In this document: positions 9,567 through 17,901 of the stretch, one piece after another
Layout: each line of letters starts with the position of its first letter
Numbering within the stretch: position 1 is the first letter of the stretch
Assembly: GCA_001793865.1 (NCBI GenBank)
Contig: MGIS01000023.1
Coordinates: forward strand, 136,573-170,580
Length of the DNA stretch: 34,008 nt
Reading direction: 5' to 3'
Origin: Candidatus Wolfebacteria bacterium RIFCSPLOWO2_01_FULL_47_17b
Lineage (GTDB): Bacteria; Patescibacteriota; Minisyncoccia; UBA6257; JAGOQP01
Position numbers and translations under genes: made by a program
The notes under the pieces: model-generated
Seen by the model: the letters and a program-made list of their open reading frames with translations, nothing else
Told to the model about the DNA's origin: nothing
Database searches by the model: none

Positions 9567-10001
9567 TCAGGCAGAATTAAGGATCCAACGCATCCAATCC
9601 CTTCTGATTGTTTTTGAAGAATTTACAAGTTTATCTATTGCATGAATTGTTTTATCTGAAACTGAACCTGCTTTTTTTATTTCTTTCCCCCAACTTTCTT
9701 TTAATTTTTTAACGCTTAGTTCCCTTATACGATTCAGGTCTATCACACATTTCCGCGGCAAAACTACTTCTTCTCCTTTTTGAATTAGTAAAAATTCTTT
9801 TACTATTTTACTTGGTTTCTCAAAATACTCTGTTTTGGTTGTGGCGCGTATAGCAAGCACGCAGTTGTTTTGTACATCCGTTAATATAAGAAATAAAGAG
9901 TCTTTTTTCTCTCCCGTTTCGTAGAATTCAAAGCCGCTCCAAAAAATAACATTGCCTTTTGTGAGATGTCCCAAAGTGTTGGTTCCAGCCGATTCAGACA
10001 T
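9567..10001 (-). CDS. Small protein paired with a Panacea-domain gene; candidate toxin
   Basis: 144 aa, begins ~10 bp after the upstream Panacea-domain ORF on the same strand; family not recognised with certainty. Confidence 0.5.
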   Translation of the reverse strand: MSESAGTNTLGHLTKGNVIFWSGFEFYETGEKKDSLFLILTDVQNNCVLAIRATTKTEYFEKPSKIVKEFLLIQKGEEVVLPRKCVIDLNRIRELSVKKLKESWGKEIKKAGSVSDKTIHAIDKLVNSSKTIRRDWMRWILNSA

Positions 10002-10011
10002 AACAGAAAGC

Positions 10012-10572
10012 TTAGTGATTTATCGTCCCCTCAACCTCATCATCCTCTTCTTGCAGTTCGGAAAGGTATTTTTTGTCCGCTTCATCCTCGATAGCATCTG
10101 TGTACTCGATCGGGAAGACCTTAGGAGTATTTTTTACAAACGGAATTTCGTGGGTTTTTTCCGCTAGACCCGTTCCTGTCGATTCATAGAATTTTGCGGA
10201 AACTTCTGTCATAATCTCAAGATCAGATTCGCTAAAAACATCCCTGTTATATTCTTTGAGCGGCTCTATTTTATGGAATTTTTTTCCTCCTCCAATCTGC
10301 TCTGGGCTTACTTTCATAAATTCCTCTAGTCCCGTTTTTCCGTCTTTTTGAAAAAATGTTTTCTTAAATAAATCATACGATATTGTCGGAACAGGCCCTT
10401 CGGGAAGATGGAAGTATACATCGCCTATAATTGGCCTCCCATATTTTTCATAATGTAGAAAATCCGCATAGAAAAGAAGCTTCACTAGTTTCGTGATGCC
10501 AAGTTTTCGCGGATTGGTGTGCTTTGCGAAATAAAGCGCGGCGTTTATGAACTTGTCTTTTTGATACTGCAT
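10012..10572 (-). CDS. Panacea-domain (DUF4065 / SocA-like) protein, putative antitoxin
   Basis: MQYQKDKFINAALYFAKHTNPRKLGITKLVKLLFYADFLHYEKYGRPIIGDVYFHLPEGPVPTISYDLFK matches the DUF4065 core (KLvKLLYfaD, GRPI.GD.Y....GPVP). Longer ORF runs to 10623. Confidence 0.82.
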   Translation of the reverse strand: MQYQKDKFINAALYFAKHTNPRKLGITKLVKLLFYADFLHYEKYGRPIIGDVYFHLPEGPVPTISYDLFKKTFFQKDGKTGLEEFMKVSPEQIGGGKKFHKIEPLKEYNRDVFSESDLEIMTEVSAKFYESTGTGLAEKTHEIPFVKNTPKVFPIEYTDAIEDEADKKYLSELQEEDDEVEGTINH

Positions 10573-10656
10573 AGAGCTAATACAAAAAGGCCTCCTTTTG
10601 ATTATAACGAACCAGAATGACAAACATTTCTTCTAGTGTAGCACGCTGTGCATAAA

Positions 10657-14528: not shown

Positions 14529-15509
14529 TCATTCTGAATGAACATGAAGAATCTTTAGTTGTAGTTTGTGTGCATTCCCATGCTTCAGTAACCCCAGATA
14601 CGAATTGAGTGTTTCCGGCGTGGGAGATGCCTGTATGCGCTTGAACATCCTTTTCTTAGTCGCCGTCCGCAATACCCGATGATCGGGAAAATGCACCCAA
14701 CCGAGGAAATCCACTCCTGACCCTATGGTTTTGATAAATAACTTGTCTTCGTGCAGCGAAAGCTTCAATTTTTCAGACAGGAATTTTTGTATGATGGGAA
14801 TGATATTTTCTAACTCCCCTCTCTCGCGAAAAAGAAATACAAAATCATCTGCGTATCTGATGTAGTACTTTTCTTTGAGCGCATGCTTCACGAACTGGTC
14901 AAATTCATTCATATACACATTTGCGAATAATTGAGAGGTGAGGTTACCCAACGGCAGTCCCTTGCCTTCTATTGGATTGAAACTGCGTATAATCCGCTCG
15001 CAGAGCCAAAGCGTATCCGTGTCTGTAATATGCTTTTGGATGATTGAAATAAAAATATTGTGATCAATATTCGCAAAGAACTTTCTGATGTCACATTTGA
15101 GCACCCAGCATTGTTTGGTGTTGTTTTTGGATACAATGCGGATAAATTTTTCAAAGCGATAGAGTGCTCGGTGCGTTCCTTTATTATTCCTGCATGAATA
15201 GGAATCGTACTCAAATTTCTTTTCAAAATATGGATATAGTTTTCTGTACATGGCGTGATGAAGCAGTCGATCGCGCACGGGAGCGATATGTATAATCCGC
15301 GGTTTTGGGTCTGATATCTTAAGAACTCTATACGCGCCGTGGCGGTATGTTCTGTTTTGGAGATCTCGATACAAAGAAAAGAGATGATCCATCAATTGCA
15401 GTTGAAAATGCGCGATGTCTTTTCTATTTCTTTTTTCCTTCAAAAACTCTTCCCAAGCTTCAAGCAAGTTTTGCACGGAAATAAGTTCTTCGTATGGACT
15501 TTGACGCAT
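14529..15509 (-). CDS. Diversity-generating retroelement reverse transcriptase
   Basis: RT palm motifs CDIRKFFANIDH and YIRYADDFVFLF; DGR-type motif GLPLGNLTSQLFANVYMNEFD; flanked by Avd and a TR/VR pair. Confidence 0.97.
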   Translation of the reverse strand: MRQSPYEELISVQNLLEAWEEFLKEKRNRKDIAHFQLQLMDHLFSLYRDLQNRTYRHGAYRVLKISDPKPRIIHIAPVRDRLLHHAMYRKLYPYFEKKFEYDSYSCRNNKGTHRALYRFEKFIRIVSKNNTKQCWVLKCDIRKFFANIDHNIFISIIQKHITDTDTLWLCERIIRSFNPIEGKGLPLGNLTSQLFANVYMNEFDQFVKHALKEKYYIRYADDFVFLFRERGELENIIPIIQKFLSEKLKLSLHEDKLFIKTIGSGVDFLGWVHFPDHRVLRTATKKRMFKRIQASPTPETLNSYLGLLKHGNAHKLQLKILHVHSE

Positions 15510-15564
15510 ATTCGTAGTATATATGCATATATGAATTTTTCACCCCCCCCCCGCAGCACCTTCA

Positions 15565-15948
15565 GTGCTGCAGAAAGCAAAGCTTGCATACACGCTATGG
15601 CTTGTTGTAGCAGAGCAGATCCCGCGTATACATCGCTACGGACTTCGGAGTAGAGTTGAATTCTACTTTCTTGAACTTCTCGAATCAATCTTCACGGCTC
15701 TATTTCTTCCTCCTATTGAAAAAATACCGTATATCGAACGCGCAATGAAAAAACTGAATGGTGTGAAATTTTTTTTGCAACTGTGCTGGGAAAATAAACT
15801 CGTTCCCAACAGCCAATATATACAACTCACCGAACAATTGAATGAAATTGGGAGAATGCTGGGAGGATGGAAGATTGGCATAGAAAAGAAAACTCTCGCC
15901 CGTACCTGCGAGAGAAAACCGCAAGTTTCGGGAAGGAAGACGCGATGA
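15565..15948 (+). CDS. avd: Accessory variability determinant (Avd-like four-helix bundle), GTG start
   Basis: KAKLAYTLWLVVAEQIPRIHRYGLRSRVEFYFLELLESIF...NEIGRMLGGWKIG: Avd / 23S-IVP-like pattern. Opposite strand to RT; 3' end overlaps the TR. Confidence 0.88.
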   Translation: MLQKAKLAYTLWLVVAEQIPRIHRYGLRSRVEFYFLELLESIFTALFLPPIEKIPYIERAMKKLNGVKFFLQLCWENKLVPNSQYIQLTEQLNEIGRMLGGWKIGIEKKTLARTCERKPQVSGRKTR

Positions 15949-16045
15949 TGATTCTCGGCATTCCAAACATTGTCGTTCTCGAACCGGTTCACGTTCGCCT
16001 TCAGCGTGCCATCAGCATTGACGTTCACGTTGGCAACGAAGAATT
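15926..16045 (-). repeat. DGR template repeat (TR)
   Basis: 120-bp ungapped match to 16373-16492 (constant offset 447) with 18 mismatches, 17 of them at T on + (A on the coding strand). Coding reading is Asn-rich: ANVNVNADGTLKANVNRFENDNVWNAENHHRVFLPE. Confidence 0.96.
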
Positions 16046-16288
16046 GTGCGCTATGCCATCTATGTCGCATTTCTGCCACTGCGGTCCAACTTATGGATCC
16101 GCTGCATCGTACATGGGGCATCCAAAGCCCTCCAGCACATCGCACCAACTGGCTGCTTTTTTGAAAAAATGCATGCACACTCTTGCAAGACGTATCCGGC
16201 AAAATTCTCTCATACATTTTCTCATAACCCTAACCCCAAAACCGTGGTCGTGGGATGACATAGGATTACACTATTATGATATAAAAAA

Positions 16289-16332
16289 TCCCCCAAATTT
16301 CAAGATACAAAGTGTATAAGAAATTTAAGGGA
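16289..16332 (-). terminator. Long hairpin downstream of the variable gene, with U-tract (terminator and/or DGR target hairpin)
   Basis: Minus strand TCCCttAAATTTC..ATACA-ctt-TGTAT..GAAATTTggGGGA then TTTTTT. Confidence 0.7.
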
Positions 16333-16358
16333 TGTTTAAAAGGGGAAAGGGATTAAAG

Positions 16359-17015
16359 TTACGCAGCCAGTTTTGCGGGAAGGAAGACGCGATGATGACG
16401 CTCGGCACTCCAAACACCGTCGTGACCGAACCGGCGCACGCGCGCCAGCAGCGCGCCATCAGCATAGACGTTCACGTAGGCAACGAAGAATTTTCCTTTT
16501 GATTTGAACAAAAAGAAATTTGCCCAGCCATCGCCTCGTAACCAGTTTCGGTATCTTTTTACGATACTGCGAATCTGCCCGTGTGTGAAACACATGGCAT
16601 CAAGGTTTCCAGTGACGGATGTGAAGAAGTCTGCAAATGTTCCACTCTTCTGCAATTCGTAGACATCGAATGGCATGTCTAGAGTTGCATTTCCTTTTTC
16701 ATTCGCCCCATACTTTGCAAAATCCGAATCAACGTATGAAAACATGCCATCGGACTCTTCAATAACTTTATCTTCGCATGCGGAGACGATATACTGCTCA
16801 TTTCCGGAGAGAAGTTTCAGATATTCGTTTCCGGAAAACGGATGGGTTGTGTTGCCAATAATATCTTCCGCCCATTTATCGTACAGCGGGCTTCCGGTTT
16901 TGAGCTTTTCGAATATCTGTTCTTCGGTGCCGCCTGCTTTTATGACGGATCTGTACAGATTGTTTAGAATTTCTGTACCGAAATTCATTCCGCTGACCAT
17001 TACTGATTTTTTCAT
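16359..17015 (-). CDS. DGR variable (target) protein
   Basis: C-terminus AYVNVYADGALLARVRRFGHDGVWSAERHHRVFLPAKLAA lies in the VR. Likely start MKKSVMVSGMNFG at 17015 preceded by AAGGA; longer ORF to 17048. Confidence 0.93.
   Translation of the reverse strand: MKKSVMVSGMNFGTEILNNLYRSVIKAGGTEEQIFEKLKTGSPLYDKWAEDIIGNTTHPFSGNEYLKLLSGNEQYIVSACEDKVIEESDGMFSYVDSDFAKYGANEKGNATLDMPFDVYELQKSGTFADFFTSVTGNLDAMCFTHGQIRSIVKRYRNWLRGDGWANFFLFKSKGKFFVAYVNVYADGALLARVRRFGHDGVWSAERHHRVFLPAKLAA
16373..16492 (-). repeat. DGR variable repeat (VR)
   Basis: See TR; substitutions almost only at TR adenines; located at the 3' end of the target gene. Confidence 0.96.
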
Positions 17016-17260: not shown

Positions 17261-17473
17261 TCACTGTATGAGCAAAGAAACTCTGATGCGTGGATTTGAA
17301 GAAAGACCAAGTTCAGTGAGATTCTCCCCATCAAAATGAAGTTCCGTTGCTTCTTTGATATTATAAGCCAATTCATCCAATGTTTTTGCCTGGGTTACGA
17401 TAGGAAAATCAGTACACACAGCGAAGTAATATATATTGTCTTTTGATATGGTGAAGTTGATAGTTTTTTTCAT
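17261..17473 (-). CDS. HicB-like / DUF1902-like small protein
   Basis: MKKTINFTISKDNIYYFAVCTDFPIVTQAKTLDELAYNIKEATELH: HicB-type pattern; 4-bp overlap with the upstream gene. Confidence 0.65.
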   Translation of the reverse strand: MKKTINFTISKDNIYYFAVCTDFPIVTQAKTLDELAYNIKEATELHFDGENLTELGLSSNPRIRVSLLIQ

Positions 17474-17901
17474 AAAAGATCTCTTTCTTTCAATTCAATT
17501 TCTTCTTTCAGTATATCAAATTTTACCGTGAAGATGTCGAAAAAACCTTTTTGGCCCAAAACTCCAAATCCACGTTCTGCTATGTCGTATGAAAATCCGA
17601 CTGTTGTTTTATAATCCCACCCTCCGACCGAAAGAATCACATCGTGCAAAAATGCCGTCGCCCCGCCACGCTCCTGGACACCGCCGAAGATTTTTTCTCT
17701 GCCGAATCGCACATCAAGACCAAGATATTCTCCTAACTCGGCGTCAAAAATACAGAAATCGGCACCTGAATCAATAAGGGCTACGTAATCAAGTTCATCA
17801 TTTTTAATTTTAATCTGTATTGGGATAATCGGCTTTAGTATAGCCGATCCAAAGAAGTCATCTTTTGACGGCAGAAGTAGTTTTCTATACTGAAATTTCA
17901 T
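17470..17901 (-). CDS. Retropepsin-like aspartic protease domain protein
   Basis: VALIDSGADFCIFDAELGEYLGLDV: D-S-G-A catalytic signature of retropepsin-like (clan AA) proteins. Confidence 0.8.
   Translation of the reverse strand: MKFQYRKLLLPSKDDFFGSAILKPIIPIQIKIKNDELDYVALIDSGADFCIFDAELGEYLGLDVRFGREKIFGGVQERGGATAFLHDVILSVGGWDYKTTVGFSYDIAERGFGVLGQKGFFDIFTVKFDILKEEIELKERDLL

Follow-up and report, generated by a model that had tools for sequence, protein, structure and literature searches.

An open question about a diversity-generating retroelement (DGR) is how the cell protects useful receptors from being scrambled by its mutagenesis. The question bears on a cassette in a 34,008 nt stretch of the genome of Candidatus Wolfebacteria bacterium RIFCSPLOWO2_01_FULL_47_17b (the whole stretch is called the window below), in which the avd gene carries a run of ten cytosines at its start and is out of frame as assembled. 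The cassette, its relatives in other Patescibacteria and the repeats found in them are described here, and a slipped-strand on/off switch is weighed against other readings.

The retroelement of the window and its host genome

The template repeat (TR) and variable repeat (VR) align over 120 bp at an offset of 447, ungapped and with 18 mismatches, exactly as the preliminary description of this DNA had claimed. Its claim of adenine specificity also stands upon realignment; the mismatches are not spread over all bases, since 17 of the 18 lie at a template adenine and 17 of the 32 TR adenines are changed (hypergeometric P=4.6e-11). Read in the coding sense, eight are A>G, six A>C, three A>T and one G>T. 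An unbiased self-comparison of the whole window returned no other TR/VR pair. The VR lies within the last 45 codons of the target ORF, and the parts of the cassette are listed in Table 1.

Table 1. Parts of the DGR cassette in the window, with coordinates counted from the first letter of the stretch
Feature	Position	Strand	Evidence or remark
DGR reverse transcriptase (RT), 326 aa	14529..15509	-	RVT_1 E=3e-27, PHROG, PDB; start codon CAT 15507-15509 on +
avd gene: candidate ATG 15531-15533, C10 tract, Avd domain	15531..15948	+	bAvd, DivGenRetAVD; relatives with the same architecture
C10 homopolymer, proposed slipped-strand on/off switch	15543..15552	+	repeats at the same place in relatives
Avd-like ORF, 127 aa, opening at GTG 15565	15565..15948	+	full Avd domain
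Template repeat (TR)	15926..16045	-	similarity to VR begins ~15925
Variable repeat (VR)	16373..16492	-	3′ end of target gene
Target protein, 218 aa	16359..17015	-	helical N-terminal part; compact C-terminal domain with VR; AlphaFold2 pLDDT 87.3

The RT contains the DGR motif GLPLGNLTSQ noticed earlier, which fits [IVL]GxxxSQ, as well as YADD. Its best solved relative is the DGR RT of Bordetella phage BPP-1 (8ub7, E=2.8e-42, versus 7e-20 for a group II RT), and it matches the PHROG family ‘Reverse transcriptase’ with E=1e-106. The Avd-like protein of the preliminary description was recovered by Pfam bAvd (41.9 bits, cut-off 40), by PHROG Avd (E=8e-14) and, below the cut-off of 80 bits, by NCBIfam DivGenRetAVD (58 bits, E=8e-16); a PDB sequence search with Avd gave no match. 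The target protein likewise has no sequence match in Pfam, PHROG or PDB, and related target proteins occur in DGR loci of other Patescibacteria. The suggestion that its fold might be C-type-lectin-like was followed with AlphaFold (pLDDT 87) and Foldseek. The top chains are C-type-lectin-like, but an E of ~0.45 and TM scores of 0.24–0.39 amount to a weak hint.

Judged from its sequence, the DGR of the window is a genuine protein-diversifying retroelement, with an RT, an Avd and a TR/VR pair that are ordinary for the Patescibacteria (CPR), to which its ultra-small host belongs. Its RT would make errors at adenines when copying the TR RNA, and the resulting cDNA would take the place of the VR in the 3′ part of the target gene; for this cassette, the TR/VR pattern and homology argue for both steps. 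The earlier term ‘complete DGR’ holds for the parts and for past activity, yet in the assembled sequence the one candidate ATG of avd does not share the frame of the Avd domain. The preliminary description made no mention of the antisense position of avd, of the repeat tract or of the number of DGRs in the genome. The host genome (730 kb, 25 contigs) holds four DGR-type RTs, each adjoining an Avd-like gene: those of the window and of contigs C10, C12 and C24. A-biased TR/VR pairs are present at all four, and four of the seven C/G runs of at least 8 nt in the 730 kb lie in these four DGRs.

Several minor features of the window and the host genome were also noted. Apart from tRNAs, Rfam found no known RNA in the window and the DGR loci searched. 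At 9567-10623 (-) of the window a SocA/Panacea-domain protein (E=1e-19) adjoins a weak PemK-like protein (E=0.06), possibly as a toxin-antitoxin pair, and beside the DGR target gene, at 17470-17901 (-), lies a retropepsin-like aspartyl protease domain (Asp_protease_2 E=5e-4, below cut-off). In the DGR of contig C10 the TR is present twice, as identical copies in a tandem arrangement of 481 bp (L005:9584-10209); the second bears the downstream flank of the VR, which is what unequal crossing-over of TR with VR would be expected to produce.

The antisense avd gene and the repeat at its start

The avd gene of the window lies on the strand opposite to RT, TR and VR, antisense to the TR-RT spacer, and its 3′ end overlaps the TR. 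Reading along the plus strand, the RT start is followed by the candidate ATG, the C10 tract and the Avd frame, with the divergent avd and RT starts ~21 nt apart. The same architecture is found in three of the four host-genome cassettes (window, contig C10 and contig C12), avd starting near the divergent RT start, traversing the spacer in antisense and ending at or in the TR; in the contig C24 cassette target, avd, TR and RT all share a strand. The loci retrieved through similarity of their RT comprised 143 distinct antisense cassettes and 11 same-strand ones. A tree of 278 RT sequences places the antisense cassettes almost all in a single clade of 172 RTs (support 0.995), with one RT labelled antisense outside it, and the close relatives of the window RT are this antisense-avd Patescibacterial DGR clade. 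The layout may already have been described in earlier literature (Wu 2018, Paul 2017).

The antisense-avd RTs of the host genome (that of the window, L006:2041-3003 and L005:8196-9170) look mosaic. Those of the window and contig C12 have near-identical C-terminal halves and divergent N-terminal halves, a pattern that suggests gene conversion. Locus L229 (G183:C18) has an RT gene with three in-frame TGA codons, and its lineage possibly reads TGA as an amino acid.

The candidate ATG of the window is one phase out of frame with the Avd domain; nine cytosines instead of ten would read MNFSPPPAAPSVLQK.... The avd gene of contig C12 is also out of frame. That of contig C10, 93 % identical to the window in this region and with one A fewer before its own ten-cytosine tract, is in frame. 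Strict scoring was applied to 140 antisense-avd loci, three with Ns being set aside, and 113 of them have a repeat at the avd start. The units differ: C7-14 in 103 loci, (CT)7-13 in seven, and (CA)8, (CAAC)11 and (GCCAGCC)6 in one each. The avd 5′ end holds 103 of the 106 C/G runs of at least 8 nt in 720 kb of antisense-avd loci, where 0.05 would be expected from background. An in-frame ATG is present in all 27 repeat-free loci versus 26 of the 113 repeat-bearing ones (Fisher P=2e-14). Within the group L047, L080, L125 and L159, which are ~82–87 % identical, one and the same site is seen repeat-free with avd in frame, repeat-free, as C9 and as (CAAC)11.

As assembled, 87 of the 113 repeat-bearing avd loci are out of frame (OFF); a single unit lost would restore the frame in 50 of these and a single unit gained in 37. 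The start codon was assigned by position only, and at many loci this ATG overlaps, on the opposite strand, an RT codon for a conserved His. When the nearest ATG is taken, the in-frame share is 23/113, below one third (P=0.003), perhaps through mis-assigned starts or through selection.

Repeats in and beside the RT gene

Same-strand Patescibacterial cassettes carry their repeat within the RT gene. A first site, at residues ~121–130, holds G9-12 or (GA)7-27, and a second, at residues ~159–188, holds (GA)11-35 or, at a single locus, G10. Wherever avd was scored in a cassette with the second site, it proved to be antisense. In the RT alignment the two sites correspond to loops of variable length. 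The RT of contig C24 has a G12 tract (L007:9103-9114; C24:71102-71113) that reads in frame as GGGG in the loop preceding catalytic motif A; a model of this RT (pLDDT 89) puts the first site between helix 108-123 and strand 130-136. The RT is read in two frames in 18 Patescibacterial loci, and most RT-repeat cassettes are split at the repeat. Two loci, L188 and L201, are identical over 2,315 bp save for one substitution and the tract itself, which is G9 with the RT in frame in the former and G11 with the RT out of frame in the latter. Their bins are placed in different genera, so that transfer or mis-binning is possible.

Pooling all sites gives 172 repeat-bearing cassettes, with unit lengths of 1 (137 cassettes), 2 (25), 4 (8), 5 (1) and 7 (1) nt. 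Units of 3 or 6 nt occur in none of the 172, and none has repeats at two locations. The negative control consisted of viral DGRs only (96 loci, BPP-1 itself not among them), and in these no repeat within or beside the RT and no split RT was found; a plasmid search for DGRs returned mostly group II introns. MutS_V gave no match in any of 21 genomes, the host included, and was present in 11 of 14 controls.

Eight cassettes without an avd repeat (L168, L172, L173, L245, L249, L250, L257 and L266) have repeats ~80–110 nt downstream of the RT, made up of TGGA, GTTG, GGAT or AGAT (6–10 copies) or C13 and not located in an identified gene. Several of these are preceded, on the opposite strand, by an ATG and a TATAAT-like box.

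A proposed slipped-strand switch and its alternatives

In the BPP-1 DGR, avd nonsense mutants drop to a repair frequency of ~1e-9 (PMC12875486). Avd being essential in this model DGR, an out-of-frame avd or RT should stop retrohoming, and slippage should restore it. We propose that replication slippage at the C10 tract, in genomes that yielded no MutS, adds or removes units and so shifts avd in or out of frame; a minority of cells would thereby hypermutate while the others have the process switched off, and in related DGRs the equivalent switch would sit inside the RT gene. The cassettes show three hallmarks of a contingency locus: a repeat near the gene start far above background, non-triplet units that vary, and ON as well as OFF states among relatives with the gene otherwise intact. 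On sequence evidence, slipped-strand translational phase variation is the best and a likely explanation, by which mutagenic retrohoming would be alternately enabled and disabled. Switching in living populations and the gating of mutagenesis are suggested by the tracts (their lengths taken from assemblies), the frame states, the conservation of the site and the L188/L201 pair. The window cassette is probably switched off in the assembled consensus, given that the sole candidate ATG of the essential avd and the Avd domain are in different frames. It is likely, too, that Patescibacteria repeatedly evolved such switches at alternative DGR sites (the avd 5′ end and two RT loops), which would make targeted hypermutation a stochastic, heritable on/off trait.

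The tract might instead, or as a second effect, act on expression of the RT, as it lies ~35–45 bp upstream of the RT start codon. In the former case its length would alter the spacing of a divergent promoter for the RT or the TR RNA, and the avd frame would be immaterial; a few loci with 4-nt repeats or C13 ~100 nt downstream of the RT would also suit such transcriptional phase variation. We regard it as unlikely, since the frame contrast between repeat-bearing and repeat-free avd loci and the repeats that split the RT point to translation. Somewhat less likely still is an ordinary active DGR in which translation of Avd begins beyond the tract, at a GTG or TTG, so that the repeat would serve as an untranslated leader or spacer. 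The GTG of the window does open an ORF with the full Avd domain, and an in-frame start (ATG, GTG or TTG) follows the tract in 45 of the 87 OFF loci. However, this start is ATG in only 3 and is absent from the remaining 42, whereas the repeat-free loci have an in-frame upstream ATG without exception; RT-splitting repeats and the absence of 3- and 6-nt units would also be left unexplained.

That so many repeat-bearing loci are out of frame could be taken as decay, the avd or RT genes being pseudogenes. This is very improbable, as the lesion is confined to the repeat: the Avd domain is stop-free over 85 codons in 86 of the 87 OFF loci, the repeats persist across the clade, and A-biased TR/VR pairs are kept in OFF loci (65/78) as in ON loci (21/22). 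Homopolymers are the commonest site of indels in assemblies, and miscounted runs could give false frameshifts in an avd that is truly in frame. There is little to recommend this for a tract that recurs at one site in more than 100 loci from many assemblies, and whose place is taken by di-, tetra-, penta- and heptanucleotide repeats, (GA)n reaching 35 units. Programmed slippage, in transcription or on the ribosome, is in principle favoured by poly-C and poly-G runs and would keep Avd at a low, steady level; tetra-, penta- and heptanucleotide repeats are not expected to support such slippage, and neither tract length nor phase is conserved, so that we give it hardly any weight. A fixed poly-proline linker, a G-quadruplex or an RNA element was also considered, and a sequence-specific role of this kind is disfavoured because the repeat units change and triplets are absent.

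DGRs of CPR bacteria are well known, as are slipped-strand contingency loci. The contingency loci of Neisseria, Haemophilus, Campylobacter and Helicobacter resemble the window cassette in having a homopolymer or short coding-region repeat with a non-triplet unit and a model of reversible frame switching. They switch mostly surface or modification genes, whereas the gene switched in the window cassette would belong to the mutagenesis machine itself. With the BPP-1 DGR (mtd-avd-TR-brt) the window cassette shares an RT of the same family, Avd, an adenine-specific TR/VR pair and a target gene whose 3′ end holds the VR; in BPP-1, avd is upstream of the TR on the same strand (PMC12875486), while in the window it is antisense to the TR-RT spacer and bears a repeat tract. 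Cellular CPR DGRs whose targets lack recognisable domains, a trait that the window cassette shares, make up clade 2 of Roux et al. 2021, which is confined to Patescibacteria/CPR (PMC8144416). Avd is not mentioned in the main text of that paper, and hence neither are an antisense avd or repeats in avd, and the cassette classes of Yan 2019 are based on TR, VR and RT only. A literature search found no paper joining DGRs with slipped-strand mispairing, and none that links them in its title or abstract with simple sequence repeats or phase variation; it covered subscription literature incompletely, so priority for the link is not established.

If the repeats are switches, hedging would occur at two levels: a random switch would pick the lineages that mutate, and the DGR would pick what mutates in them. 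Many CPR DGRs in databases would then probably be assembled OFF, with the RT split or avd mis-annotated, and surveys requiring intact ORFs would therefore miss or truncate them. The phase-switch hypothesis is directly testable from existing metagenomic reads.

A further tract was seen in the genome on a 5.9-kb contig (C14) that may be foreign to the host bin. There, a gene for a secreted protein with a YPNPFNP-type C-terminal sorting domain (L222:478-1395) carries a G10 tract.
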